Positions 8,139 through 59,060 of a stretch of 64,000 bases of DNA are shown here, piece after piece (the first letter of the stretch is position 1; every line of letters begins with the position of its first letter). Below the pieces are notes generated by a model. It was not told the DNA's origin. It did not search any database and saw only the letters and a program-made list of their open reading frames with translations. Origin of the DNA: Liolophura sinensis (lineage: Eukaryota > Mollusca > Polyplacophora > Chitonida > Chitonidae); the NCBI RefSeq assembly GCF_032854445.1, contig NC_088304.1, forward strand, positions 2,852,001 to 2,916,000, in the 5' to 3' direction. The position numbers and the translations under genes are program-made.

Positions 8139-11100
8139 CTGCAAAAATAAAACTTAATATTGAAGAAACAATAATATCTGAAGGAGTAATTTCTTCATAC
8201 AGCACGTATTTAGAAGCTAGAAGTACGTTACTTTGTTTCAGAAAACTGAATTTATTAGATTTATTTATTTGATGGGTGTTTTACGCCGTACTCAAGAATA
8301 TTTCACTTATACGACGGCGGCCAGCATTACGGTGGGTGGAAACCGGGCAGAGCCCGGGGAAAACCCACGACCATCCGCAGGTTGCTGGTAGACCTTCCCA
8401 CGTACGGGCGGAGAGGAAGCCAGCACGAGCTGGACTTGAACTCACAGCGACCGCATTGGTGAGAGATTGCTGGGTCATCACGCTGCGTTAGCGCGCTAAC
8501 CGACTGAGCCACGAAGGCTCCTCCGAAAACTGAATGTGATTTAAACTTTTTTTTTTGAACCATGGTGCTAGAATTGGCTATCTGCTGTAATTCTTCAGCT
8601 TGTTCATATGTTTGCAACGTGTTTACACGGACATATGCTGAAGCAATTATTCTATGTGGATTAATAAAATTGTACTTTTTGTGAATGGCCAATTCAACAA
8701 CTGTAATTTTGCAGTTTTGCCAGCAAAATCAATTAATAAATGTGCATAAATTGCTCTGAAAGTTGCTCTTTTATAACCCAAAATTCCGGATTCATACACA
8801 AGGCTACTAGTAGATCGTAAGTGGGCGTTTCAAGCCGCCTGTTAGGCCAAGTTTGAATCTCTTAAACCCATTAAATAATGTCAACGTGGAAGTGCCTGAA
8901 GCTGAAAGGTTAAACTCACTTGAGGCCGTACGGATCTCCGTGTATTTCAGCTCGCCAACCGTATTTCTCCAGGGCCTCGTCATACTCGTCTTTAGAGGTA
9001 TCCGCCTCATCCTCGGAGTCACTATCGTCCCCAGGGTCCTCCAGGGAGAGATCAGCGATGTTAGGGGTCGGGTTCTGAGGTCGACTCTGCGCACTCTCCG
9101 TGCAAGTGACCCCAGGCTCGGCGGAATGAGTCTCCCGTTTGGGAACGGGAGTTAAAGACGTTGTCTTGACCGCGGGTGAGGTTTGTGGGCGCTCAGAATC
9201 AGGAAACTGTACTCTTGGCATGGACCGACGAGGTCGTGCAGACTGAACGGGTCTTTGTCGGGGTGCCCAAGGTGTCGGGGCCCGAGCGGTGGGCTGTATG
9301 TGAGTGGGCGGGGCACTCTTGATGCGGTTGGGTCGCCGTTTAAGCTCTTCCCTGGAGACAAGAGGGCTCCTAAAATTGACCCGGTGGGGGACCGGTTGAG
9401 TCCGAGGCCCTTCGGGGGTCAGCAAGCACTGCCTGAGCTCTTCTGTTGAATCGTACCTGGGAGGCGGCCAGAAGAATTTTGGGTACTTCACCCCCTGGGG
9501 CTGGTGGATTTTCTCCGGGCTAACTGTGATCGGAGTAGCCTCTGTTTTCGTCGGCTTATCCCAGACCTCTTTTGGAGTCGGGATAGGGCTGGACTTGACT
9601 CTGGGCGCTGGTTTAATGACCAAGAATGGGGACCCTTGCTCCAAGTCGACCTGTCCCCGTTGTCGGGCTGCACTCTGTGATCCCCTAGGGGGCGCGGGTG
9701 TATACCTGACATCTGGCCCAGGTGGATCCTTTAATCCTAGCGATATAGTCGGTTTAGGAGGGGTTACCTGTCCGCTGTGGTACTTGGAATTCTGAAACCG
9801 GAACATGCATTCCAGTTCTGAAAAGAAAGACGAGGCTTTCATCAATTCCCAAAAATTCTGGAGGACGACAGACAAGGCTCCTTCCCTGTGTTTTGTTTTT
9901 GTTGTTATTTTTATACGTTTTCATGTTGCGATGTTGAATTCTAGGACAGGACTACAGTGCGCTTTTGTGCAATCATTGTACAGGCACTAATATATCATGT
10001 ACTCAACTTTCTGGTCATTACACATACTACTGGACAAAATATAAAGTATTATAGACCCGATTGAGATTTATTCCAACTGTTCATTTAAATTATTAAATAG
10101 TAGCAACTTAAATGACCCCTACAGCACCGTCGCTAAAAGCAGCCGAGCAGTAGGTGAAACTGTTATTAACAGTTGTGTTAAAAGAGGCTTTTAATCATTG
10201 GTAGGAATGCCCTGCCTTAAGGTGGATTTAACGTTCCAATTGTAGAAGGGACCTCGATGGAACAATGAAATTTACCATTGGGGATGTTGTGGTATCGGGC
10301 CTAATTTCGGTACACGTTGTTTGCCGATTTAATGTTCCAATTCTAGAAGGGACCTCGATGGGACAATGAGACTTACCATAAGGGTTGTTATGGTATCGGG
10401 CGGCATTTCGGCACTCGTCGTTCGCCGATTTAAAGTTTTGATGTAGAAAGGACCTCGATGGGACAATGAGACTTACCACAGGGGTTGTTGTGGTATCCAG
10501 CGCCATTTCGGCACACGTCGTTTGCCGATTTAACGTTCTGATTGTAGAAAGGACCTCTATGGGACAATGAGACTTACCATAGGAGTTGTTGTGGTATCCA
10601 GCGGCATTTCGGCACACATCGTTTGCCGATTTAACGTTCTGATTGTAGAAGGGACAATGAGACTTACCATAAGGGTTGTTGTGGTATCCAGCGACATTTC
10701 GGCACACATCGTTTGCCGATTTAACATTTTGATTGTAGAAGGGAAAATGAGACTTACCATAAGAGTTGTTGTCGTTTCGGGCAGCATTTCTGCACACGTC
10801 GTTTGCCGATTTAACGTTCTCATTGTAGAAAGGACCTCGATGGGACAATGAGACTTACCATACGGGTTGCTGTGGTATCGGGCGGCATTTCGGCACACGT
10901 CCTACGCCGATTTACCGTTCCGATTGTAGAAAGGACCTCGATGGGACAAGGAGACTTAACATAGGGGTTGTTGTGGTATCCAGCGGCATTTCGGCACACA
11001 TCATTTGTCGATTTAACGTTCTGATTGTAGATGGGACAATGAGACTTACCATAGGGGTTGTTGTGGTATCCAACGGCATTTCGACACACGTGGTTTGCCG

Positions 11101-12474
11101 ATTTAACGTTCTGATTGTAGATGGGACAATGAGACTTACCATAAGGGTTGTTGTGGTATCCAGCGGCATTTCGGCACACGTCCTACGCCGATTTAAAGTT
11201 TTGATGTAGAAAGGACCTCGATGGGACAATGAGACTTACCACAGGGGTTGTTGTGGTATCCAGCGCCATTTCGGCACACGTCGTTTGCCGACTTAACGTT
11301 CTGATTGTAGAAGAGACAATGAGACTTACCATAAGGGTTGTTATGGTATCGGGCGGCATTTCGTCAAAGGCCGTTTGCCGATTTAACATTCTGATTGTAG
11401 ATGGGAAAATGAGACTTACCACAAGGGTTGTTGTGGTATCCAGCGGCATTTCGGCACACGTCGTTTGCCGATTTAACATTCTGATTGTAGATGGGGCAAT
11501 GAGACTTACCATAAGGGTTGTTGTCGTATCGGGCAGCATTTCGGCACACGTCGTTTGTCGATTTAACGTTCTGATTGTAGAAGGGACCCCGATGGGACAA
11601 TTAGACTTACCTTACGGGTTGCTGTGGTATTGGGCGGTATTTCGAAACACGTTATTTGCCGATTTAACATTCTGATTGTAGAAAGGACCTCGATGGGACA
11701 ATGAGACTTACCATACGGGTTGCTGTGGTATCGGGCGGCATTTCGGCACACGTCCTACGCCGATTTACCGTTCCGATTGTAGAAAGGACCTCGATGGGAC
11801 AAGGAGATTTACCATAGGGGTTGTTGTGGTATCCAGCGCCATTTCGGCACACGTCATTTGCCGACTTAACGTTCTGGTTGTAGAAGGGACAATGAGACTT
11901 ACCATAAGGGCTGTTATGTTATCGGGCGGTATTTCGGCACACGCAGTTTGCCGATTTAACGTTCTGATTGTAGAAGGGACCTCAATGGGACGAGAATTAC
12001 CATTGGTTTTGCTGTGGTATCCGGCGGCATTTTGACACACGTCGTTTCCCGATTTAACGTTCCGATTGTAGAAGGGACCTCGGTGGGACAATGAGACTTA
12101 CCATACGGGTTGCTGTGGTATCGGGCGGCATTTAGGAACACGTCGATGCCGATTTAATATTTTGATTGTAGAAGGGACCTTGATGGGACAATGAGACTTA
12201 CCATAAGGGTTGTTGTGGTATCCAGTGGCATTTCGGTACACGTCGTTTGCCGATTTAACGTTCTGATTGTAGATGGGACAATGAGACTTACCATAAGGGT
12301 TGTTATGGTATCGGGCGGCATTTCGACACACGTCGTTTGCCGATCTAACGCTCTGATTGTAGAAGGGACCTCGATGGGACAATGGGACTTACCATAAGGG
12401 CTGTTGTGATATCGGGCGGCATTTCGGTAAACGTCTTTGGCCGATGGGTACCATCCGTAAGTGATCTCCTTCAT
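7898..12474 (-). CDS. Three-exon gene for a 406-residue proline-rich protein of unknown function
   Basis: The coding exons are 12393-12474, 8920-9817 and 7898-8138. Both introns are GT-AG and phases match exactly (phase 1, then phase 2). The start is supported by an in-frame TAG six codons upstream of the ATG at 12474. Residues 29-326 are rich in proline, basic residues and serine. An acidic run lies at about 287-308, followed by EKYGWRAEIHGDPYGL. Exon 3 is a compact conserved-looking tail with NWQTFFLNTIPSR and HKEWMSEVIHAKRMQLQKK, ending FNFKKYAFAY. No signal peptide or membrane segment is visible. The aromatic/proline style recalls small ciliary or sperm microtubule inner proteins (the SPATA48/SPMIP type crossed my mind), but I cannot verify this and assign no name. 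Intron 1 is filled by an array derived from the end of exon 1. The model is strong; the function is unknown. Confidence 0.8.
8252..8524 (-). mobile_element. SINE family A, full length, in intron 2 of the unnamed gene
   Basis: Read on the minus strand it runs from the tRNA-like head (GAGCCTTCGTGGCTCAGTCG), through the B-box region (GAGTTCAAGTCCAGC), to the tail core and AAATAAATAAATC. It is flanked by a perfect 11-bp target-site duplication, GAAAACTGAAT, at 8241-8251 and 8525-8535. It lies wholly within intron 2 (8139-8919). ORFs on both strands here are SINE artefacts. Confidence 0.92.
8920..9817 (-). CDS. Unnamed gene, exon 2
   Basis: This exon encodes residues 29-326 of the unnamed protein. 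The acceptor is CTTTCTTTTCAG above 9817. The donor is CTCAA|GTGAGT at 8920/8919, so the TGA at 8916-8918 lies just inside the intron and is not the real stop. It is much richer in GC than its surroundings. It carries many PxP and SPxP motifs and an acidic segment before YGWRAEIHGDPYGL. Confidence 0.85.
10228..12392 (-). repeat. Exon-derived tandem array, ~22 units of ~90 and ~101 bp, in intron 1
   Basis: Each unit, read on the minus strand, contains a degenerate copy of the last ~50 bp of exon 1 (AACGACGTGTGCCGAAATGC then CAACCCTTATG), immediately followed by the donor GTAAGT and TCATTGTCCC. Some units carry an extra 11-bp block (containing CATCGAGG), which makes 101 instead of 90 bp and shifts the frame. 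The 90-bp units read as a 30-residue repeat with NVKSANDVCRNAAGYHNNPY. A higher-order pattern is visible: the stretches near 10425-10550 and 11189-11310, and those near 10896-10953 and 11751-11806, are almost identical. The array starts directly at the exon 1 donor, so exon 1 itself is the end unit. Confidence 0.88.
12393..12474 (-). CDS. Unnamed gene, exon 1 (first coding exon)
   Basis: This exon encodes residues 1-27, starting MKEITYGWYPSAKDVYRNAA, with the donor TATG|GTAAGT in phase 1. An in-frame TAG lies 18 bases upstream of the ATG. A possible acceptor (GTTTTCCAG, exon base 12525) suggests that 12475-12525 is 5' UTR and that a further non-coding exon lies upstream, but that exon is not identified. 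Confidence 0.75.
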
Positions 12475-12525
12475 TGCCGCTGCTTGCTAATTCTTGTTGT
12501 CAGATAAACTACCTCCAACAGGTTT

Positions 12526-14079
12526 CTGGAAAACACAAAGTAGAGGTGATAATTAAACCAAATGTCTCATAATTGTGACAACACTATACCTAAATGATGC
12601 AAATTTGCAGCTTTTAGGAATCACCGGTGTTTCCTTTGCATACCTTTTCCTAATAATGTGTTTAGACCAGGAATAACTTCCACACAAAAATTCATTTTTT
12701 TTCTTTTGCTTGGCAAACTCTGTTTTGAAACTGACACTGTCTAGTTGAATAGGTCAAAAGGTGTGAAGAAAAAGGTTCCACAACATACGTTTCATCATGC
12801 ATGAAGCTTTGCATCAAAAGGCTCTCTCTGAACCACTTAATTATCTAGTATTCATTAATATGGTCTGATTCGCTGCGAATTACAACCGGAAATTCAATTT
12901 ATGATAGAGTAGATCGATTGGTAGGGCACATCCCGGAGTGACACGGGTGGGCTTAGCATTCTCAAGGCCAAGTCCCCTTGCATTGTTTTAATATTTTTTT
13001 ATACTGGTATGTTAAATACATGACAGCACAATATTATAAGTAATACGAGATCAGTGACGTCTAATAAATTGCAATCAGCATCACTGCATATTTATTCTTA
13101 ATGCCGTGGTACTTTGGGGCGTGTAATTCGTTAGTATTTAAACATAAAGAACGAACTGTTAGAATAAATTCCTAAATGAAGTGAAATGACCAGAGGTCGT
13201 ACGTCTCCAGTTGCGTGCTACCATTTGTCAGCTCTCATACTGTCGTCGCTGCTCTATGAAGTCTTTAAGCTAACAGTAAATCTCTCCGTCAACGAAATGT
13301 CTTAGCTTTCGGTTAAACACGTTGACAAAAAACCTGTTCCTTTGAGTGGCCTGAAGCAAGAATTGACTAACACCTACCTCTGACCTGTGACCTGCATTTC
13401 ACGTGGGGAATCCTACCCGTATTTGGCAACAGTCTACAGATTTAGCTAGTCTATTGTCTATTTAGGATCCACCGTTGGCTGCTGCCAGGGCCTGGTTATG
13501 CATCACTAGATATAACAGGTCCGCTGCATCATTAATAATGCACGCAGCACGTGCTTCAAACACGCCATTGGCTACTACCTACAACGCCATTACTTTTACA
13601 GGTAATCAATATTACAGCTTCCACACGCACACTGACTGGGAGGGCCGAACAAACATCAAAGGTTTCGGATACAAATGATTGAGTGGTGATTTGCTAACTG
13701 ATTCATTAACTCATATGGTTAATCCACTTTTACATTTTTTTATGAATTACACTTTTTGCACAGTAATGTATGCTTGTAAATCCTTTGTTTACGGGTCTTG
13801 CAGCATTCCTTAAATTGGGGTCACGACCTCTGACATAAAATGACATATCTTTATTTCACTCGTATTGGTTGACGACTGGTACACGAATGTCGGTTCTGAC
13901 ATCTAGATTTAAGGTCATCAATACTTGTCCTCATTTACCATTTCCACGACTTTGCCATCTCTAATTAATTTATGTAGCTCCTTAGTAGCGGTCGCCAAGA
14001 AAACACCGCAGGGGAAGTAATAGTAGTAACTATTCACTGACGTCCTTTATACGATGTCATGTACATGCCGATACATATG
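12526..14079. other. Non-coding stretch with one dispersed repeat
   Basis: This is the upstream flank of the unnamed gene. It holds a copy of dispersed element D at about 13050-13125 (GTGACGTCTAATAAATTGCA). The ORF at 13475-13678 has no support. No promoter motif could be fixed with confidence. Confidence 0.4.
13050..13125 (+). repeat. Dispersed repeat D, copy 1
   Basis: It shares GTGACGTCTAATAAATTGCA, then a CATCACTGCAT-type segment and an AATGCCGTGGT-type segment, with 14765-14855 and 26150-26235. Reverse copies lie at about 15420-15510 and 18130-18210. It has no coding capacity. Confidence 0.6.
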
Positions 14080-18386: not shown

Positions 18387-18610
18387 TTTGTTTATTTATT
18401 TGATTGGTATTTTATGCCGTACTTAAGAATATTTCATTTTTACAACGGTGGCCAACTTTATGTCGGTAGCAGACCGGGCAGAGCCCGCGGGAAATCCACG
18501 ACCGTCCGCAGGTTCCTGGCAAAGACCTTCTCACGCCCGACCGCGGAGGAAGTCGGCATGGGCAGGGCCTCACTGGTGAGAAACACCTGAGTCACACTCT
18601 TTGCTGCTGG
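18387..18610 (-). mobile_element. SINE family A, diverged copy
   Basis: The minus-strand tail (TTTATTTATTTGATTGG read on plus) is followed by diverged core and body (CAGACCGGGCAGAGCCCG). The tRNA-like head is degraded and no target-site duplication is visible. Confidence 0.75.
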
Positions 18611-24136: not shown

Positions 24137-24281
24137 GCTCATGCTGGCCTCCTCTCCGGCCGTACGTGAGAAGGTCAGGCAGCAACCTGCCGATGGTCGT
24201 GGGTTTCCCCCGGCCGCCGTCGCATAAGTCAAATATCCTTGAGTACGGCGTAAAACACCAATCAAACAAATAAATAAATAT
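24137..24281 (+). mobile_element. SINE family A, 5'-truncated copy
   Basis: It begins inside the body at GCTCATGCTGGCCTCCTCTC, lacks the tRNA head and ends ACCAATCAAACAAATAAATA. Confidence 0.85.
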
Positions 24282-26766: not shown

Positions 26767-27031
26767 GGGGCCTCCGCGGCTCAGTCGGTTAGAGCGCTAG
26801 CGCAGCTTAATGACCCAGGGGTCTCTCACCAATGCGGTCGCTGTGAGTTCAAGTCCAGCTCATGCTGGCTTCCTCTCCGGCCGTACGTGGGAAGGTCTTC
26901 CAGCAACCTGTGGATGGTCGTGGGTTTCCCCCGTGCTCTGCCCGGTTTCCTCCCACCATAATGCTGGCCGCCGTCGTATAAGTGAAATATTCTTGAGTAC
27001 GGCGTAAAACACCAATCAAATAATTAAATAA
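26767..27031 (+). mobile_element. SINE family A, full length with target-site duplication
   Basis: The head GGGGCCTCCGCGGCTCAGTC contains a tRNA A-box-like segment, and GAGTTCAAGTCCAGC matches a B box. The body and tail core (TTGAGTACGGCGTAAAACAC) are intact. A 10-bp duplication, ATATATTTGA, flanks it at 26757-26766 and 27032-27041. It is one of the best-preserved copies here. Confidence 0.93.
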
Positions 27032-27130: not shown

Positions 27131-27230
27131 TTTATTCATTTGAATGGTGTTTTTCGCCGTACTCAAAAATATTTCACTTATACGACGTCGGCGAGCATTA
27201 TGGTGGGAGGAAACTGGACAGACCCCGGGA
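27131..27230 (-). mobile_element. SINE family A, 3' fragment
   Basis: The tail and about 80 bp of body are present in reverse (TTTATTCATTTGAATGGTGT, then AAAATATTTCACTTATACGA). The head is missing. It lies 100 bp from the full-length plus-strand copy, giving an inverted pair. Confidence 0.8.
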
Positions 27231-31189: not shown

Positions 31190-34100
31190 CTGAAGAAAAA
31201 ATGAAAGAAACAAGTTTCGTCATAATCCGTGGGATTTTACCAAATCTGGCAGCGCAAGTCAAACATGAAGATTTACCACCGTACTCACCAAATTCATGTG
31301 TTCTCGACTTTAATAAACATTATTTTGGTCAATGACAATGTTATTCCTTTGTAGCATGCTGTCATAACACCTCAGATTCAATTCTAGAGAGTACCCAGAC
31401 TGCAGGATTCAATGTCTTAGGTACGAGCGGACTCAGAAAAGAATGTCAGACCCCAGGATCATGAAATGATCTCAGATTTAAGTCATAATTTCAAATCACT
31501 TTAAAATTGTTATTTTTTATGTAACAAGGTCAAATTTTGCTTGACAACATAAATTCTGGGTAACTTATTGTTCAGCGTATTTCAGCTAAAATAACTGAAA
31601 GGAACAAACCAAATTTAATGATTAAAATATTGACTTAAGCCTAAGACTGCTTCATGATCCAAGGGCCAGGCCTCCAGCTTAGACATCTTTAACCTGGATA
31701 GCACAGGTACTCACAATAAAACTTGTAAAGGCTAAGATTACTTCATGAAAAACCGATGTGCTTTAAAAAAAAAAACAAAGAAAATTTTTCTCAATCAGTA
31801 CTTACAAAGTGAAGTGCATTGGATTGATGGGTGGAGGAAATCGAAATGCCTGAAATAAACCACTGACCTTTGCCAACCTACTGATGAACTTTTCCATGTG
31901 TGACAGATTTGTGGACCATACTGATGGGAGACAAGGGTCCTTTGATGAGCAGAAGGCTGCACAAACTACTATCACTATCAAGGGCTTTATACTCTGGGCA
32001 GGGCACCTACCAACTGTTGGGGAGTGAGGCTTGGGGCGATGGGAGGTGTACGCTTAAATTGACTGCTTGGGTTTGTACGTACCACTGTGCATGTCATCTA
32101 TACTCTGCTCCTTCTCCCCTGTCCCTGTGCTGAATATAGTGACAGACGTGTCCGCTGCGATGGCAACCGTCCTGCCGTCAGGAGAAAGGGAGATAAGGCT
32201 GTGGAGCGGACTTTCAAAGTTCCCCGTATACAGTAAGTATGGATCTTGACCCATCTGATAGCGAACTGAAGAAAAATACAGAAATGTGGTGACTTTATTT
32301 ACTATCTTTTGTGATTTGCATCATTCTTTCATGAATGCTCTATCCCATAAAATAACCTAGGTCATATTATGGGAGAGAATAGATGGCAGACAATGGTGCT
32401 GTGTTCAGATATCCATTTATTTATTTGACTGGTGTTTTACGCCATAGTCAAGAATATTTCACTTATACCCCTGGAGTCCTGCATTATGGAGGGAGGAAAC
32501 CGGGCAGAACCCTGAGAAAACCCACTACCATCTGCAGGTTGCTGGCAGACCTTCCCAGTGACGGCGCGTTCAGATAAATCACTAATTTACATGCTTTGAT
32601 GGATCCTGTCAACATTGTGAATTATTCTGACTGTTGGTGGCACAAGACTCACAGGGCGAAGTAGGCAGTAGAACTAACTAATGGAGAATTGCTTTGGTTC
32701 TAAAATCAGTGAAACAGTGATTTAATGTATACTACACTGGTTGATTTGGCAAAACTCAGGACTGAGTTTGTTTGGAAGGTAGGATGATATCCAACAAGGA
32801 AAATGTATAGTTTGGCACCAAAAGTAAAGTCTCATGACACTTATTTGCCTCTAAAAATGGTCTTTTGTGGTTGAATTTTGAGGTCATTTAGGGTAGCTAG
32901 TAGTATAATTGGGCCTGTAGCATCAATAAGAAGGAGTGTTGTTCAAACCTAACCAGGGTCAGACTTTGGACCTGGATACATGTACAATAACAGAGCAGGG
33001 TAGTCTTCAAACTAAAACTCTTCAACATTTTCACGCATTAGTAAGATGTTTAAGATGTTCACACAATATCTCTGTCACTAGTAAAATGGAATTAACATAT
33101 TAGAGCTTTTGTACTCACTATCAGTGTCCCAAAATCGCCATGTTCCATCTTTGGATACAGAAGCCATTCTGAAAATAGTGAAAATGGCATCGCTCAGGCA
33201 ACAAAATACAAGGTAATCATTGACATCAGACCTATTCTTACTTTCTTGATTGACAGATTGACAGACTGACCTATTAACAGAGCTACCTCATAACGCTGGG
33301 TTTGGGCCCCGTGCCACAAGGGCAGAATAGTTTCTGTTCCATAAGTGTGAAAACAATATGAGTCATCGATGACAGAAAACCAGAATCATGGAAGACAGAA
33401 AACCAGAATCATGGATTACAGAAAACCAGAATCATGGATTACAGAAAACCAGAATCATGGATTACAGAAAACCAGAATCATGGAAGACAGAAAACAAGAG
33501 TCATGTAGGACAAAAAAACAGAGTCACGGAAGACAGAAAACAAGAGTCATGTAGGACAAAAAAACAGAGTCATGGATGACAGAAAAAAAGTCATGGATGA
33601 CAGAAAACAAGAGTCATATAGAACAAAAAACCAGAGCCATGGTTGACAGAAAACCAGAGTCACCTTGAGTCATGTATAACAGAAAACCAGAGTGATGGAT
33701 TACAGAAAACCAGAATCATGGATTACAGAAAACCAGAGTCATGGATAACAGAAAACCAGAATCATGGATAACAGAAAACCAGAATCATGGATCACAGAAA
33801 CCAGAGTCATGGGTGACAGAAAACTGGAGTCACGGATAACAGAAAAACCAGAATCATGGATGACAGAAAACCAAAGTATGTAGTCATGGATGACAGAAAA
33901 CCAGAGTCATGGACTACAGAAAGCCAGAGCCATGCATGACTGAAAACCAGAATCATGGATAACAGAAAACCAGAATCATGGGTGACAGAAAACTGGAGTC
34001 ACGGATAACAGAAAACCAGAATCATGGATGACAGAAAACCAAAGTATGTAGTCATGGATGACAGAAAACCACAGTCATGGGTGACACAAAACCAGAAGCT

Positions 34101-37100
34101 GACGGCCAAAAAAATCCAAGGACTTTTCAAGTACTTTCAAGTACTTAAAATACAAATTCAAGTACCTCAAACGGCAGTCACAATCTCCGCCTTCACGTAC
34201 AAACTGCAACAAGAGGCACAGCTTGAATGCGTTTTTAGGTAATTTTGTAAATGTGGTACAGCCATGCCGTGGCATTCGACCAGTAGGCAGCCTTGTGTTG
34301 GTACCATAACCTTCAGTCGGTGCTGACATCACTGATAATCAGACAACCCATCATAGATTCTTATAAATTTTCCGCTATCCGTCAGAATAAAAAGCTCAGC
34401 TTAAAGTAATTCTGCACAACGCAGGTGTTTGTAAACAGCGACACTGTCAATCATGAGTGGTAAAGGGTGACTTGCCCATACTGGAGACATCTATACTTCA
34501 GAGGCACAATAAGCACTGACTGACACTGCCGGCGTCGTGCACAAGCCATCCTTGAAATCTGGGAACTGCAGGCATTCATCACTAAAATGACAGCTGCCGG
34601 CATCTCTAATGCTTTTGTTTTCACGCGCCAACTCACTCTCAATGACTACAGTGTAAGTTCTTACCGCCAAACAAAAACAATGCGATCTTAGCGCCCTCTA
34701 AGGGAGAAAAGAAAGTAGTGGCGAAAACTATGACCGCATGCATACCACTGGCGGCCGCTTTAGGGGCATGCCTGTTGCCAATTAATTCACAGATTCTTAC
34801 CACCAAATAACTTTCTTCATGTGACAAAAACAAAATCAAGTACTTTCAAGGACCTCCACACAAAAATGGTAAAATTCAAGCACTTTCCAGTACTTGTATT
34901 ACCAAAATATAATTCAAGTACTTTCAAGGTTTTCAAGGACCTGTGCAAACCCTGGGGTTATGGATAACAGAAAACCAGAGTCATGTAGAGTCATGGATGA
35001 CAGAAAATCACAGTCATGTAGAGTCATGGATGACAGAAAACCACAGTCAAGTAGAGTCATGGATGACAGAAAACCAGAGTCATGTAGAGTCATAGATGAC
35101 AGAAAACCACAGTCATGTACAGTCATGGACAACAGAAAACCACAGTCATGTAGAGTCATAGATGACAGAAAACCACTGTCATGTACAGTCATGGACGACA
35201 GAAAACCACAGTCATGTAGAGTCATGGATGACAGAAAACCACAGTCATGTAGAGTCATAGATGACAGAAAACCAGTCATGTAGAGTCATGGATGACAGAA
35301 AACCAGAGTCATGAACGACAGAAAACCACAGTCATGTAGAGTCATGGATGACAGAAAACCACAATCATGTAGAGTCATGGATGACAGAAAACCACAGTCA
35401 TGAATGACAGAAAACCACAGTTATGTAGAGTCACAGACGACAGAAAATCACAGTCATGTAGAGTCATGGATGACAGAAAACCACAGTCATGTAGAGTCAT
35501 GGACGACAGAAAATCACAGTCATGGATGACAGAAAGCCAGGGTCATGGAAAACAAAATTGGCAGTTAAGTGCAATGACCTGTGACCTAATTCATAGTTTA
35601 CACTAGCCAGCAACGCTGGCCGCCCTCACTGGCAGTACAACAGGAGTAAAACTACTGGTTTTAATACATAGGTCAGGAACCAGGCCTTTAGGCTGGCAAT
35701 AAATAGAGTGTGTGGTGGGGGGTGTGGAGGGGGAGGTCTTTGGGGTGCTGCTATATAGAGAGACTGGAATGTATAATAACAGTCTGAGATTGGAGCATTT
35801 AATGAATAAAAATCAACGCTTCTCGATAAAAGCAGATTTGGACATTCACATGTAAATATTACTGTGCAAAGCCATCAAAAAGGGGTCAATTTAGGAAGTA
35901 CTCACCGACTCGAGTCGCTGGAGAAGGAAAAACTATGTACCCCGGCTTTATGACCCTTGAGTTCAAATGCTCGTGCCACCTCCTTAAAGTTACCTCCCTT
36001 GTCAAAGCACACCTCCCATACCTTCACGTCAGGTGTAAAGCCTAAGACAACAGAGAGCACATCACACTCAAATTTATTTATCACAGGAAGGAACAACACA
36101 CTGTAACTGATACAAATCAATAATAAATTGCCCAAAATTTGGTGTGTAAAGTCTTTTTTTGCTGCCAGCCTGCCACTTTGGTGTACAGGTATTTTGACGG
36201 TCAACCTATGTCAAGATTTTTATGGCTTCTTTCTCACAGGCTGGGCCAGGTATTCACCAAAGCTTATTGGCCATGGAATGATTGGGACTGAGCTACAGCA
36301 CTAAACGCTAACATTGTCACTTATGGAAAATTAATGAGGGTCTGTGAACAGTGGAGAAACTATAGAATACAGATGTTCACAAAAGATACTGCTAAATATC
36401 CTTCTGTAGAATACTTGCTATTCACATTACACTGGCTAGATTACCTGATGACGCCACAAATCTGCCACAAGGTGACAAAGCGCCGTGAGAGTTGTTCATC
36501 TGATGAGTGTCTATGGTTGCCAGCAAATCACCTGCAACATTTTAGAAAGATGCTCTGAGGTTTGTTTAGAAGCTAAAATAGTATCTGTAAGCTTCAGGAC
36601 TAAAAGATATGTATTGTGACCTTTGCCTACACAATGCATTTCTTCATTCCAATTCTAAAAGACAACATCAGACTAAATGTATAAAATTCACATGAAATTT
36701 AAAAAGCATAACCTTCTATCTTTGTGATGTAAGTAAGCAAATTTGCACACATTGAGAAAATTGCCAGTGTTGCCATGCAATCAATTTGGATCAATCACTC
36801 AAACCTTGGACTGACTCTTAACCATACATGTATGTGTGCGGGATACTTTCACCCACTGACCCATTCACCCTCTCACCCATCGACCCATTCACCAATCGGC
36901 CCATTCACCCTCTCACCAATTGACCAATTTACCCTCTCACCAATCGTCCCATTTACCCTCTCACCAATCGTTCCATTTACCCTCTCACGAATCGACCCAT
37001 TTACCCACTCACCAATTGACCCATTTACCCTCTCACCCATCGACCCATTCACCCTCTCACCCATCGACCCATTCACCCTCTCACCAATTGACCCATTCAC

Positions 37101-40100
37101 CCTCTCACCAATCTTTCCCATTCACCCTCTCACCAATTGACCCATTCACCCTCTCACCAATTGGCCCATTCACCTCTCACCAATTGGCCCATTCACCCTC
37201 TCACCAATTGGCCCATTCACCCTCTCACCAATTGGCCCATTCACCCTCTCACCAATTGGCCCATTCACCCTCTCACCAATTGACCCATTCACCCTCTCAC
37301 CAATTGGCCCATTCACCTCTCACCAATTGGCCCATTCACCCTCTCCCAATCAACCCACCCTCTCACCAAACGGCCCACCCTCCCACTGGCCCATACACTA
37401 ACCAATCAACATATCCTCTCACCAATCGCCACACCTTCTCACCAAATGCCACACCCTCTCACCAATCACCACACCCTCTCACCAATCTTTCCCATTCACC
37501 CTCTCACCAATCGACCCATTCACCCTCTCACCAATCGGCCCACCCTCCCACTGGCCCATACACTAACCAATCAACATACCCTCTCACCAATCGCCACACC
37601 TTCTCACCAATTGCCACACCCTCTCACCAATCACCACACAGTCTCACCAATCTTTCCCATTCACCCTCTCACCAATCGACCCATTCACCCTCTCACCAAT
37701 CGGCCCACCCTCCCACTGGCCCATACACTAACCAATCAACATACCCTCTCACCAATCGCCACACCTTCTCACCAATTGCCACACCCTCTCACCAATCACC
37801 ACACAGTCTCACCAATCTTTCCCATTCACCCTCTCACCAATCGACCCATTCACCCTCTCACCAATCGGCCCATTCACCCTCTCGCCAATCGACCCACTCA
37901 CCCTCTCATCAATCGACCCATGCGCCCTTTCACCAATCAATCCATTCACCCTCTCACCAATCGGCCCATTCACTCTCTCACCAATCGACTCATTCACTCT
38001 CTCACCAACTGACCCAGTCTCCCACCAAGCGACCCACCCTCTCATCAATCCACCCACCCTCTCACCAATCAACCCACCCTCTCACTGGCCCACACACTAA
38101 CCAATCAACACACCTTCTCACCAACTGCCACACCCTCTCACCAATCACCACACCAATCACTCTCTCACCAATCACCACACCCTCTCACCAATCAACTCGC
38201 CCTCATTATATTCAACCCGCCCTCTCACCAATCAACCCGCCCTCTCACCAATTGGCCCCAACTATCACTTGCCTGCCCACTCACCTTTCAGGTCCCAGAT
38301 CAGCATAGTGGTATCACTGTGACAGGTCATGATGAACTTCCCAGAGCTCGCAATCCCAATGTTGATAATCTCTGCATCGCTTTTCTGAAAACAAGAACAT
38401 TGCCAGTTTCATGCATAATTAAATAGAAGATAATGCACAGTGAAGGTTGAATATCATAAATGTTGTTTCAGTGAGAGGCGGAAATGATAACCCACTCTAC
38501 AAGTATATAAATGCGTATCAGTTATCTGTTGCATTCGTGGAAAAAATAAGCAATGTGCTATCTTCGTCGTATTTCTGATTCTATTCATACGTGCTGCATT
38601 TTCGTTCACATCCGCGCTCACAAAACCTTTTTACAGTTTTGAATGCTGTCTATAAGTAATTATACATTCTACAAAGGTGCTTAATGCTGATGCAATATAG
38701 GTACGTAATATTTACGTAAATTAAGCACATGAAGAATTTCTACCTCTTTTTTTTTGGCAAACTATATATTGTGCAGAAGTGCGGGGCCTTGTGATGCAGT
38801 CCATGAAGTGTCAAGATCTCCAGAAGTGTAATAGCAAAATGTAATAACAAAAGTTGATATCTAACTAGTGAAGATATCATTTCTATCAGTGAAGGAAATA
38901 CTGGGATTTTACTGGTATATAAATAATAAACCACAATATTGGTTAAAGTGACCGCTGCCTTGAATATTCAAACTATAATTATCTCATGTAGATGCACTGC
39001 TTCAATTCAGATGGGTACAGATGTCATTTTAGAGAGTGTGACCACTGCATGTTTTGAACCAGCAACCTCAGAGTCTTGCACCAAATCGCCAGCAATACAT
39101 GTCATCCGTCTAGACCACTCGACCAACAGGCCTTCCACAAAAATAAAAGGTAGTTGACCGGTAGACTTTACAGCGAACATGCATTACCCTCTGATGATCA
39201 CAAATGATGTCACTCCCTCAGGTCAATATATCAGATAGGTACAGATGTCAGATGTCATTTTAGAAAGTGGATCAAGTAACAGTATTAGCGTTAATAGGGA
39301 TTAGACTTTCTGAATATAGCACAGATTCTAGTGCTGAAATTTTGCTGTGACCACTGCGGGTTTAGAACCAACGACCTCAGAGTCTTGCACCAAATCACCA
39401 GCAATAAATGTCATCTGTTTAGACCACACGATCAACAGGCCTTCCACAAAAATAGAAGGTAGTTCACCGGTAGACTATACAGTGAACATGCATTACCCCT
39501 CCGATGATCACAAAAGTTTCTATTTTTGTGCAAGGTCTGTTGGTCGAGTGGTCTAGACGGATGACATGTATTTTTTGCTGGGGATTTGGTGCCTGACTCT
39601 GAGGTCACTGTTTCGAAACCCGCAGTGGTCTCAGCAAAATTCAGCACTAGAATCTGCGCTACATTCAGAAAATGTAATCCCTATTAACGATAATAATGTT
39701 ATTGCTTCAGTTGTTTTCAACATTTGTGATCATGAAGCCTCTGGAGTTACCCTAGTGTTGTTTTGATATAAAATCCAAAATGGTCAGAAGGAAATTCATC
39801 TGAATCTTTACATTTGGGACAACAAGACGGCCTTAAAAAATGCTAGTCGCAGAAGGACCTAATTTTTGGATGTTTTTTTCTGACTCCCATCTTGTTAGTC
39901 AAACCACCCATGCAAACACTTGTAAGAATGAGTTTTACACCACACTGAAGAATATTTCACTTATACAACAGCAGCAAGTAGTATGGTGAGAGGAAAACAG
40001 GAGAAGCCCATGACCATCTGCCATTATTGGATGACACAATTGACCAGAGAGGAAAACAGCAAGAGCTGGACTGGAACTCACAGTGACTGCACTGGTGTGG

Positions 40101-45846: not shown

Positions 45847-46213
45847 TCTCTGTGACGGAGTTATCTCCCTTGGGAGTCGGGCAGCAACCAACAGGACAAC
45901 ATGACCAAAGTTGTCTGAAATTCATATTTCATTGCGTATAAGAATATTACATGTACATGTGTGTGTCTGAGTTGTTGTTCACATGAAAATCTGAGTGTAG
46001 TTAGAAAGAAAAAAAATTTGGAATTTGGAAAAGTATTTGTCAGTGTGGTTAGAGGTATTGTAATCAAGTAGACCTTATGCATGAAAATCTGCAAATTGAT
46101 TCAAGTGAAAAAATGCATACTGATCCATTACTACATCAGACAGCTGATAAGATTCTCAGAGTAAGTGTGAACAGTGAGCATTGTGGTTGCATAATCATGG
46201 GTTCATTTTTTAA
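45847..46213 (+). other. POLD4 3' UTR or flank
   Basis: No AATAAA was seen between the stop and the tandem array, so either a variant signal is used or the transcript extends into the array. The first clear AATAAA further on is at about 51564, beyond the array. Confidence 0.35.
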
Positions 46214-49200
46214 GACTCTCCCATCTGGGAATGTATTTCTGTGTTTGGAATACTGAGTGAGTGTGCAATACGCATATGTTGATCATCATTTGTTTGTTCA
46301 TGTAAGACTCTCCCATCTGGGAATGTATTTCTGTGTTTGGAATACTGAGTGAGTGTGCAATATGCATATGTTGATCATCATTTGTTGTTCATGTAAGACT
46401 CTCCCATCTGGGAATGTATTTCTGTGTTTGGAATACTGAGTGAGTGTGCAATACGCATATGTTGATCATCATTTGTTGTTCATGTAAGACTCTCCCATCT
46501 GGGATTGTATTTCTGTGTTTGGAATACTGAGTGAGTGTGCAATACGCATATGTTGATCATCATTTGTTTGTTCATGTAAGACTCTCCCATCTGGGAATGT
46601 ATTTCTGTGTTTGGAATACTGAGTGAGTGTGCAATACGCATATGTTGATCATCATTTGTTGTTCATGTAAGACTCTCCCATCTGGGAATGTATTTCTGTG
46701 TTTGGAATACTGAGTGAGTGTGCAATACGCATATGTTGATCATCATTTGTTTGTTCATGTAAGACTCTCCCATCTGGGATTGTATTTCTGTGTTTGGAAC
46801 TCTGAGTGAGTGTGTGCATTACACACATGTTGATCATCATTTGTTGTTCATGTAAAACTCTCCCATCTGGGAATGTATTTCTGTGTTTGGAATACTGAGT
46901 GAGTGTGTGCATTACACACATGTTGATCATGATTTGTTGTTCATGTAAGACTCTCCCATCTGGGAATGTATTTCTGTGTTTGGAATACTGAGTGAGTGTG
47001 TGCATTACACACATGTTGATCATGATTTGTTGTTCATGTAAGACTCTCCCATCTGGGAATGTATTTCTGTGTTTGGAATACTGAGTGAGTGTGCAATACG
47101 CATATGTTGATCATCATTTGTTGTTCATGTAAGACTCTCCCATCTGGGAATGTATTTCTGTGTTTGGAATACTGAGTGAGTGTGCAATACGCATATGTTG
47201 ATCATCATATGTTTGTTCATGTAAGACTCTCCCATCTGGGATTGTATTTCTGTGTTTGGAACTCTGAGTGATTGTGTGCATTACACACATGTTGATCATC
47301 ATTTGTTTGTTCATGTAAGACTCTCCAATCTGGGAATGTATTTGTGTGTTTGGAATACTGAGTGGGTGTGTGCATTACACACATGTTGATCAGCATTTGT
47401 TGTTCATGTAAGACTCTCCCATCTGGGAATGTATTTGTGTGTTTGGAATACTAAGTGAGAGTTAGTATGTGCAGTACACGTGTTGATCATCATTTGTTGT
47501 TTATGTAAGACTCTCTCATCTAGGAATGTATTTGTGTGTTTGGAATACTGAGTGAGTGTGTGCATTACACACATGTTGATCAGCATTTGTTTGTTCATGT
47601 AAGACTCTCCCATCTGGGATTGTATTTCTGTGTTTGGAATTCTGAGTGAGTGTGTGCATTACACACATGTTGATCATGATTTGTTGTTCGTGTAAGATTC
47701 TCCCATCTGGGATTGTATTTCTGTGTTTGGAATACTGAGTGAGTGTGTGCATTACACACATGTTGATCATGATTTGTTGTTCATGTAAGACTCTCCCATC
47801 TGGGATTGTATTTCTGTATTTGGAATACTGAGTGAGTGTGTGCAGTACACACATGTTGATCATGATTTGTTGTTCGTGTAAGACTCTCCCATCTGGGATT
47901 GTATTTCTGTGTTTGGAATTCTGAGTGAGTGTGTGCAGTACACACATGTTGATCATGATTTGTTGTTCGTGTAAGACTCTCCTATCTGGGATTGTATTTC
48001 TGTGTTTGGAATACTGAGTGAGTGTGTGCAGTACACACATGTTGATCATGATTTGTTGTTCATGCAAGACTCTCCTATCTGGGATTGTATTTCTGTGTTT
48101 GGAATACTGAGTGAGTGTGTGCAGTACACACATGTTGATCATGATTTGTTGTTCATGCAAGACTCTCCCATCTGGGAATGTATTTCTGTGTTTGGAATAC
48201 TGAGTGAGTGTGTGCATTACACACATGTTGATCATGATTTGTTGTTCATGTAAGACTCTCCCATCTGGGAATGTATTTCTGTGTTTGGAATACTGAGTGA
48301 GTGTGTGCATTACACACATGTTGATCATGATTTGTTGTTCATGTAAGACTCTCCCATCTGGGAATGTATTTCTGTGTTTGGAATACTGAGTGAGTGTGCA
48401 ATACGCATATGTTGATCATCATTTGTTGTTCATGTAAGACTCTCCCATCTGGGAATGTATTTCTGTGTTTGGAATACTGAGTGAGTGTGCAATACGCATA
48501 TGTTGATCATCATTTGTTGTTCATGTAAGACTCTCCCATCTGGGATTGTATTTCTGTGTTTGGAATACTGAGTGAGTGTGCAATACGCATATGTTGATCA
48601 TCATTTGTTTGTTCATGTAAGACTCTCCCATCTGGGAATGTATTTCTGTGTTTGGAATACTGAGTGAGTGTGCAATACGCATATGTTGATCATCATTTGT
48701 TGTTCATGTAAGACTCTCCCATCTGGGATTGTATTTCTGTGTTTGGAATACTGAGTGAGTGTGCAATACGCATATGTTGATCATCATTTGTTTGTTCATG
48801 TAAGACTCTCCCATCTGGGATTGTATTTCTGTGTTTGGAACTCTGAGTGAGTGTGTGCATTACACACATGTTGATCATCATTTGTTGTTCATGTAAGACT
48901 CTCCCATCTGGGAATGTATTTCTGTGTTTGGAATACTGAGTGAGTGTGTGCATTACACACATGTTGATCATGATTTGTTGTTCATGTAAGACTCTCCCAT
49001 CTGGGAATGTATTTCTGTGTTTGGAATACTGAGTGAGTGTGCAATACGCATATGTTGATCATCATTTGTTGTTCATGTAAGACTCTCCCATCTGGGAATG
49101 TATTTCTGTGTTTGGAATACTGAGTGAGTGTGCAATACGCATATGTTGATCATCATTTGTTGTTCATGTAAGACTCTCCTATCTGGGATTGTATTTCTGT

Positions 49201-51150
49201 GTTTGGAATACTGAGTGAGTGTGCAATACGCATATGTTGATCATCATTTGTTTGTTCATGTAAGACTCTCCCATCTGGGAATGTATTTCTGTGTTTGGAA
49301 TACTGAGTGAGTGTGCAATACGCATATGTTGATCATCATTTGTTGTTCATGTAAGACTCTCCCATCTGGGAATGTATTTCTGTGTTTGGAATACTGAGTG
49401 AGTGTGCAATACGCATATGTTGATCATCATTTGTTTGTTCATGTAAGACTCTCCCATCTGGGATTGTATTTCTGTGTTTGGAACTCTGAGTGAGTGTGTG
49501 CATTACACACATGTTGATCATCATTTGTTGTTCATGTAAGACTCTCCCATCTGGGAATGTATTTCTGTGTTTGGAATACTGAGTGAGTGTGTGCATTACA
49601 CACATGTTGATCATGATTTGTTGTTCATGTAAGACTCTCCCATCTGGGAATGTATTTCTGTGTTTGGAATACTGAGTGAGTGTGCAATACGCATATGTTG
49701 ATCATCATTTGTTGTTCATGTAAGACTCTCCCATCTGGGAATGTATTTCTGTGTTTGGAATACTGAGTGAGTGTGCAATACGCATATGTTGATCATCATA
49801 TGTTTGTTCATGTAAGACTCTCCCATCTGGGATTGTATTTCTGTGTTTGGAACTCTGAGTGATTGTGAGCATTACACACATGTTGATCATCATTTGTTTG
49901 TTCATGTAAGACTCTCCAATCTGGGAATGTATTTGTGTGTTTGGAATACTGAGTGGGTGTGTGCATTACACACATGTTGATCAGCATTTGTTGTTCATGT
50001 AAGACTCTCCCATCTGGGAATGTATTTGTGTGTTTGGAATACTAAGTGAGAGTTAGTATGTGCAGTACACGTGTTGATCATCATTTGTTGTTTATGTAAG
50101 ACTCTCTCATCTAGGAATGTATTTGTGTGTTTGGAATACTGAGTGAGTGTGTGCATTACACACATGTTGATCAGCATTTGTTTGTTCATGTAAGACTCTC
50201 CCATCTGGGATTGTATTTCTGTGTTTGGAATTCTGAGTGAGTGTGTGCATTACACACATGTTGATCATGATTTGTTGTTCGTGTAAGATTCTCCCATCTG
50301 GGATTGTATTTCTGTGTTTGGAATACTGAGTGAGTGTGTGCATTACACACATGTTGATCATGATTTGTTGTTCATGTAAGACTCTCCCATCTGGGATTGT
50401 ATTTCTGTATTTGGAATATTGAGTGAGTGTGTGCAGTACACACATGTTGATCATGATTTGTTGTTCGTGTAAGACTCTCCCATCTGGGATTGTATTTCTG
50501 TGTTTGGAATTCTGAGTGAGTGTGTGCAGTACACACATGTTGATCATGATTTGTTGTTCGTGTAAGACTCTCCTATCTGGGATTGTATTTCTGTGTTTGG
50601 AATACTGAGTGAGTGTGTGCAGTACACACATGTTGATCATGATTTGTTGTTCATGCAAGACTCTCCTATCTGGGATTGTATTTCTGTGTTTGGAATACTG
50701 AGTGAGTGTGTGCAGTACACACATGTTGATCATGATTTGTTGTTCATGCAAGACTCTCCCATCTGGGAATGTATTTCTGTGTTTGGAATACTGAGTGAGT
50801 GTGTGCAGTGCAGACATGTTGATCATGATTTGTTGTTCACGTAAGACTCTCCCATCTGGGAATGTATTTCTGTGTTTGGAATGCTGAGTGAGAGTTAGTA
50901 TGTGCAGTACACACATGTTGATCATCATTTGTTGTTCATGTAAGACTCTGCCATCTGGTAATGTATTTCTGTGTTTGGATTTCTGAGTGAGTGTGTGCAT
51001 TACACACATGTTGATCATGATTTGTTGTTCATGTAAGACTCTCCCATCTGGGAATGTATTTCTGTGTTTTTAATACTGAGTGAGTATGTGCAGTACACAC
51101 ATGTTGATCATGATTTGTTGTTCACGTAAGACTCTCCCATCTGGGATTGT
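46214..51150. repeat. Satellite-like array, ~91-bp unit, ~54 copies
   Basis: The unit runs from AAGACTCTCCCATCTGGGAA and TGTATTTCTGTGTTTGGAAT to TGTTGATCATCATTTGTTGT and TCATGT. Two main subtypes differ in the middle: GTGTGCAATACGCATATG and GTGTGTGCATTACACACATG. Long stretches recur at an offset of 2,591 bp (for example 46,750-48,250 versus 49,340-50,840) with very few differences. Minus-strand ORFs up to 303 codons are artefacts of the repeat and are duplicated with it. Confidence 0.95.
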
Positions 51151-51656
51151 GTTTTCCTCAGCATATGCACTTTATGCTTCTTTTGATACTGCTCATCACA
51201 TTATAATTGTAATGCCACCAATATGGTATAAAACCGTTATTATTGACACATTCGTTCATTTAAAAGTCTATGTGAAAGATCTTTTAAAAGAGCTCTCAGA
51301 CTTCTGTCATATTTAAGTTTGTACAACAGGGCTCACTTCCACAAAACTTTGTTCCTCCAATTTCCCGTAACCTTTTGTATAAATGACATGGTCTATTTTT
51401 TTAGCTTCAGAAGGCATCTTGGTTGGTGGAAAAAGTTATGATAAAATTAATGTACAAAGTTTTTTGAAAGTCGGTGAAAGCGTGTGTCTTTGTAAAGTTA
51501 ATCTTATATTAGCATGTTGTATCATCAAATTGTCTTACATTGGTAAAGGTTGCCTAACAGAACAAATAAAGGTTTATACCTCATTTGTAAGTTTTTCCTC
51601 AACACTTATGTAGGCCATGTATGTCTGTGTAAGCCATCCTAAAGCTTTTCCTGCTG
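51151..51656. other. Unique spacer between two arrays
   Basis: This is AT-rich DNA with a possible AATAAA at about 51564. The ORFs at 51080-51316 and 51383-51613 have no motif. Confidence 0.4.
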
Positions 51657-56515: not shown

Positions 56516-56613
56516 GCCTCTGTGGTCGTCGGTTTCCCCCGGGATTTACTCGGTTTCTTTCCACAACAAGTGAAATATTCTTGAGTAAGGTGTAAAACAC
56601 CAATCAAATAAAT
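56516..56613 (+). mobile_element. SINE family A, 5'-truncated with TSD
   Basis: Truncated body and tail are flanked by AAATGTTATA at 56506-56515 and 56614-56623. Confidence 0.85.
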
Positions 56614-58861: not shown

Positions 58862-59060
58862 TCAGGGGTCCTCCTTGGCTGGGGGGATTAGCACGCCCAA
58901 TGCGGTTCCTGTGAGCTCCAGTCCAGCTCCGACCATACATGGTGAGGCCAGTCAGAAACGTGCTGATGGTGCGGTTTCCTCCCACATAATGCTGGCCGCC
59001 GTCCTACATATGATTGAAATTTTCTTGAGTACGGCGTAGAACACCAGTCAAGTAAATAAA
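58862..59060 (+). mobile_element. SINE family A, internally deleted copy with TSD
   Basis: The head and body have deletions but the tail core GAGTACGGCGTAGAACACCA is kept. A near-perfect duplication, TAACAGTGAA / TAACAATGAA, lies at 58852-58861 and 59061-59070. Confidence 0.8.

Follow-up and report, generated by a model that had tools for sequence, protein, structure and literature searches.

Tandem repeats that run across exon–intron boundaries have been described in lancelets, where they were named 'mirages' and are known in Adh3, the globins BflGb6 and BflGb9, TnC and PGBD5 (PMC3087553, PMC3902484). The accounts of them give unit lengths of 10–72 bp in Adh3 and of 150–160 bp in the globins, place splice signals in many, but not all, of the units, and report that mirage length is unstable (PMC3087553, PMC3902484). 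The Adh3 data and RT-PCR of the globins suggest regular splicing of the mirage genes, and the Adh and TnC mirages are said to yield no aberrant mRNAs (PMC3087553, PMC3902484). A duplication that crosses an exon–intron boundary copies splice signals, as a review notes (PMC3443670), and in human segmental-duplication genes internal tandem minisatellites at such boundaries are reported to alter gene structure (PMC2812944). An intron minisatellite of 27 bp is on record for abalone, in an account whose passage on the repeat does not state that it crosses an exon boundary (PMC6905558). A limited search of open-licence papers, made with few terms, gave no example of a molluscan boundary-spanning array among the matches listed; within that search, the array described here appears to be the first boundary-spanning 'mirage' by that name outside the lancelets.

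We analysed a stretch of 64,000 nucleotides from the chiton Liolophura sinensis (the window, to which all positions refer unless another source is named). TRF reports a single array at 10225–12445 with a period of 101 and 23.0 copies, and with that copy number its score of 2419 rules out a chance origin of the pattern. All unit counts come from cutting the array in one fixed register, after which the units were realigned. In this register the minus strand reads as 23 head-to-tail units, from 12445 down to 10228, that is, 22 units beyond the terminal one; an earlier reading made from the letters of the DNA (the sequence-only reading) had put their number at about 22. Ten units measure 101 bp, three 100 bp, one 98 bp and nine 90 bp, in agreement with the two lengths given there (90 and 101 bp), and the 90-bp units are without one 11-bp block within the intron part. 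In the unit, columns 1–53 match the 53 bp at the 3' end of the predicted exon, and columns 54–101 take in the donor and the intron start, the intron part amounting to 48 bp, or to 37 bp in the short units (the 5' splice site plus 31–42 bp). The fusion of exon end and GTAAGT that had been described thus stands, in 19 of the 23 units, with a longer intron part than the supposed GTAAGT and some 20 bp. The array had also been placed at 10228–12474; its distal end is confirmed, and 12446–12474 turns out to be exon sequence outside the array. The exon–intron boundary by which a mirage is recognised lies in the first of the 23 units, which comprises the predicted exon end and the intron start. This terminal unit departs from the array consensus at 9 of 101 columns (91% identity). 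The ATC found at both inferred breakpoints (Table 1) is consistent with a possible microhomology, a weak sign at only 3 bp.

The array was searched for elsewhere in the 609-Mb genome with a 300-bp piece, in a DNA search that scored only the best candidates and skipped very common words. All 11 matches fall inside the array, and a dispersed satellite or transposon-derived repeat was rejected on that ground. The assembly was made from HiFi reads with a mean length of 8.3 kb at 14-fold coverage, according to its description (PMC11068029), which named the species L. japonica, a name since corrected to Liolophura sinensis (PMC12441733). Since such reads are longer than the 2.2-kb array, its collapse or false expansion is unlikely. 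Within the array, a diagonal scan detected near-exact block repeats of 178 bp at an offset of +853 (98.3%) and of 127 bp at +763 (99.2%), which indicate unequal exchange or conversion. Mean identity to the other units is lowest, among the 23, in the distal edge unit (0.812), and the exon-edge unit, at 0.837, comes fourth from the bottom, after the distal and two internal units. The nine differences between the exon unit and the consensus comprise six that are private, one common to the third and distal units, and two each shared with one internal unit. With six of the nine private, they say little about the direction of change.

Tandem repeats with a period of at least 10 occupy on average 10.7% of 20 fixed-position 10-kb pieces of the genome and 22% of the window. 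The window also holds a 93-bp minisatellite at 46211–51154 (53 copies, 94% matches), with minus-strand open frames of up to 320 aa. The unit of a 165-bp array at 36892–38023, which is covered by a plus-strand open frame of 482 aa (36860–38308), likewise has a strong donor-like site on one strand. At 1413–1841 a 108-bp unit occurs in four copies, with a plus-strand open frame of 125 aa over 1550–1927.

Table 1. Predicted exons and array features, in window coordinates.
Feature	Positions	Strand	Evidence
Predicted exon, 133 nt; ATG at 12474–12472; coding part 27 codons + 1 nt	12393..12525	-	flanking acceptor (12525) and donor (12393)
Predicted coding exon that follows, of 898 nt, in phase with the donor at 12393	8920..9817	-	long open frame, splice-site scores
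Predicted final coding exon of 241 nt, including the stop codon	7898..8138	-	acceptor score; native joining
Terminal unit: 53 bp from the 3' end of the predicted exon, its donor and the first 48 bp of the intron	12345..12445	-	unit alignment
22 further tandem units (90 or 98–101 bp): exon-end copy, donor position, intron start	10228..12344	-	TRF, unit alignments
ATC at the exon-side array edge	12443..12445	-	matches the ATC just beyond the distal edge, 10225–10227

Joined from the ATG at 12474, the three predicted exons give an open frame of 406 aa; an in-frame stop lies upstream of the ATG, which has a G at −3. The splice sites were scored with approximate weight matrices. On that scale, 15 of the strand's 3605 AG sites, the 12525 acceptor among them, score at least as high as that acceptor, and 0.6% of 4162 GT sites, a share with the array copies in it, equal or exceed the native donor (12393). 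For the 9817 acceptor the figure is 0.17% of AG sites, for the donor of the 8920–9817 exon 1.0% of GT sites, and for the 8138 acceptor 1.0% of AG sites. Such a high rank for this acceptor-like site, in the stretch 12510–12545, suggests that an untranslated exon lies upstream and that the 133-nt exon first taken for exon 1 is probably internal; its predicted end lies in the terminal unit, 12345–12445. With its 27 codons this exon counts for little in statistical terms, and chance would put a donor in phase in about one case in three. We infer the exon at 12393–12525, its use and the direction of origin from sequence, the exon being a predicted one.

The predicted protein has no Pfam match at E up to 1 and no match among PDB sequences at E up to 10. 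Against the bacterial/archaeal and viral collections it gave 19 and 5 pattern matches, respectively, none of which was confirmed by tblastn, and in its own genome the matches were the three exons from which it was predicted and a single further place at E = 5.5, so that below an E of 5 it found only itself. Eight matches to the haemocyanin beta-sandwich family, which is typical of molluscs, lie in a row on one strand at G000:C8:37880506-37891931, with none in the 14 control genomes, as befits a molluscan genome. The next intron of the predicted gene contains a SINE-like element, its head tRNA-like by eye, which ends in a 28-base motif at 8275. Eight copies of this motif, with 0–3 mismatches, lie in the window (8275–8302, 18406–18433, 24232–24259, 26986–27013, 27146–27173, 32431–32458, 56574–56601 and 59018–59045), against 0 in 100 shuffles. 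Such tails are common in molluscs. ARAGORN found no tRNA in the window, and an Rfam scan of the window gave nothing informative.

As in the lancelet mirages, splice signals are found in many, but not all, of the chiton units: 22 of the 23 retain the GT and 19 the full GTAAGT, the copy at 10960 being the one that has lost the GT. The donor 9-mer of the native site, ATGGTAAGT, is also the commonest (15 units, native included), followed by GTGGTAAGT in three units, ATGGTAAAT in two, and AAGGTAAGT, ATGGTAATT and ATGTTAAGT in one each. The score of the native donor is not above that of most array copies, and one copy, AAGGTAAGT at 11611, outscores it. Conservation was assessed by counting changes per alignment column over the units, with the 11 indel columns left out of the comparisons; these tests treat the units as a tree, an assumption that exchange between units violates. 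The six donor columns show 4 changes, and 13 of 85 six-column windows are equally low (permutation p = 0.16). When the three preceding exon columns are added, the changes number 7, and 15 of 82 nine-column windows are equally low. Changes per column average 0.67 in the donor, 1.49 in the exon and 1.06 in the rest of the intron, the deficit in the donor not being significant. Thus, no significant conservation, and with it no sign of selection, was detected in the donor columns (p = 0.16). The exon copies look neutral in their changes. Parsimony changes at codon positions 1, 2 and 3 number 22, 24 and 31 (chi-square p = 0.42), and the 49 distinct variants from the consensus in 22 copies, the terminal unit left out, comprise 12 synonymous, 34 nonsynonymous and 3 stop variants, against an expectation of 28/67/5% with transitions weighted.

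Three readings had been offered at the outset: a source of variable protein repeats, a splicing decoy, and the inert growth of a satellite from a coding exon as its seed. The first of these, in which the units would be translated and their copy number would vary the protein, is contradicted under the predicted start, and we regard it as having next to no chance. The frame behaviour on which it drew had been described correctly, the 90-bp units reading through and the 101-bp units shifting the frame; the 90-bp consensus is open in two of its three forward frames, and minus-strand open frames of 208, 120 and 142 aa run over the array. Yet the opposite strand is open as well (126 and 156 aa), and a synonymous excess is absent among the variants. 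Read through the native donor, the frame from the ATG stops at 12156–12154, at the end of the third unit. Only 2 of the 22 further donor positions are reached with an open frame, both in the wrong phase, and the stop precedes the other 20; with start and exons as predicted, none of the 22 gives an in-frame product. A protein-coding tandem repeat was rejected on the absence of in-frame donors and on the codon-position changes. The same joins bear on the decoy, in which the array donors would compete with the native one, the early-ending frames would lead to nonsense-mediated decay and the unit number would tune the amount of protein. In its favour, all 22 alternative joins, with 10960 counted among them despite its lost GT, stop early, at least 847 nt before the last junction; the native 9-mer ATGGTAAGT stands in 15 of 23 units, and AAGGTAAGT at 11611 scores higher. 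Against this, conservation of the donor columns falls short of significance (p = 0.16), one copy is without GT, and the lancelet mirages, in the accounts cited above, are reported to leave splicing undisturbed; we hold the decoy to be improbable. It is compatible with an origin from the exon, so the odds of this reading and of the preferred one overlap. A stronger form, with a molluscan mirage array as a heritable splicing rheostat whose extra donors divert pre-mRNA into unproductive splicing, seems more doubtful still. Were it true, the unit number, fast-changing by unequal exchange, would set the output of the gene between individuals.

Two further alternatives concern the exon itself. The array might have come first, and its end unit might later have been recruited as an exon end, supplying the donor. 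The coding stretch is short, no protein relative was found (Pfam, PDB, bacterial/archaeal and viral collections), six of the nine exon-unit differences are private, and the sequence as it stands is compatible with either order. However, the search of the best candidates matched the array nowhere else in the genome, and at column 18 the exon base is common to the distal edge unit and the third unit, which fits an ancestral exon, albeit at one site; we think this order of events unlikely, on a par with the decoy. Somewhat less unlikely, though still well short of an even chance, is that the exon is not real, the donor-like motif being there by chance in the unit of an intergenic or intronic minisatellite. 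The exon is a predicted one, no relative of its protein was found in the collections searched, and a donor in the unit is not rare: among 33 arrays with a period of 30–400, taken without gene annotation from the window and the 20 sampled pieces, 2 (the present array included) have units that contain a strong donor, where base shuffles lead one to expect 3.0. This sample gives no excess of strong donors, and boundary arrays are not shown to be frequent here. On the other side stand the ATG with its G at −3, the strong 12525 acceptor and the strong in-phase donor, and the strong 9817 acceptor requires an upstream exon.

Our preferred explanation, which we consider probable, is that a minisatellite of the lancelet 'mirage' kind was born inside a gene when the boundary was duplicated, expanded, and is spliced out as inert sequence. 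A tandem duplication would have taken in 101 bp, from the 3' end of a short coding exon into the intron that follows it, possibly via the 3-bp ATC microhomology at the segment ends. Slippage or unequal exchange would then have raised the unit number to 23, tandem repeats being common in this genome. All the added units follow the authentic donor and so belong to the intron. The spliceosome would pair the acceptor at 12525 with the first donor, at 12393, yielding the normal exon of 133 nt, whereas exons ending at the 22 array donor positions would span 234 to 2250 nt; the array would leave with the spliced intron, and its exon copies would then drift as non-coding DNA. This explanation supposes that the exon is real and preceded the array, that the first donor wins by exon definition, the exon being short, and that the array is functionless. 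That the array comprises a whole number of units and has the predicted exon end in its terminal unit counts for an origin at the exon edge, which is also favoured by the phase of the 12393 donor with the 9817 acceptor and by the joined frame of 406 aa. Among the three readings first offered, the last, a satellite grown inertly from a coding exon, is the best supported, by the neutral-looking changes, the whole unit number, the near-identical blocks and the published parallel.

The array appears to extend a little-known minisatellite type of lancelets to a mollusc with a tandem-repeat-rich genome. It is a natural setting in which to test how the spliceosome chooses one donor among some twenty that are near-identical, and it carries a warning for gene prediction, in which boundary arrays could be called as false exons.

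In comparison with the human cases, where novel introns are reported and an alternative transcript retains the repeat in 66% of the intron modifications described (PMC2812944), the chiton array allows no in-frame retention under the predicted start. Unlike the boundary duplications treated in the review cited (PMC3443670), it would have lengthened an existing intron, and we infer no new one. The lancelet mirages are nearer. Their host is a cephalochordate and here it is a mollusc, and the two BflGb6 haplotypes described have 3 and 6 units, against 23 in the chiton. Splicing and length instability have been studied in some of the lancelet genes covered by those accounts, whereas the chiton array is known from the sequence of one assembly. 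In BflGb6, as described, the repeats involve the acceptor side; the donor side is duplicated in BflGb9, as it is in the chiton. The edges of the BflGb6 array are reported to be less homogenised, and in the chiton the distal edge has the lowest and the exon edge the fourth lowest mean identity. The unit lengths reported for lancelets (10–160 bp) bracket those of the chiton and, as in the mirages described there, the chiton units span a predicted exon–intron boundary and many of them hold splice signals.
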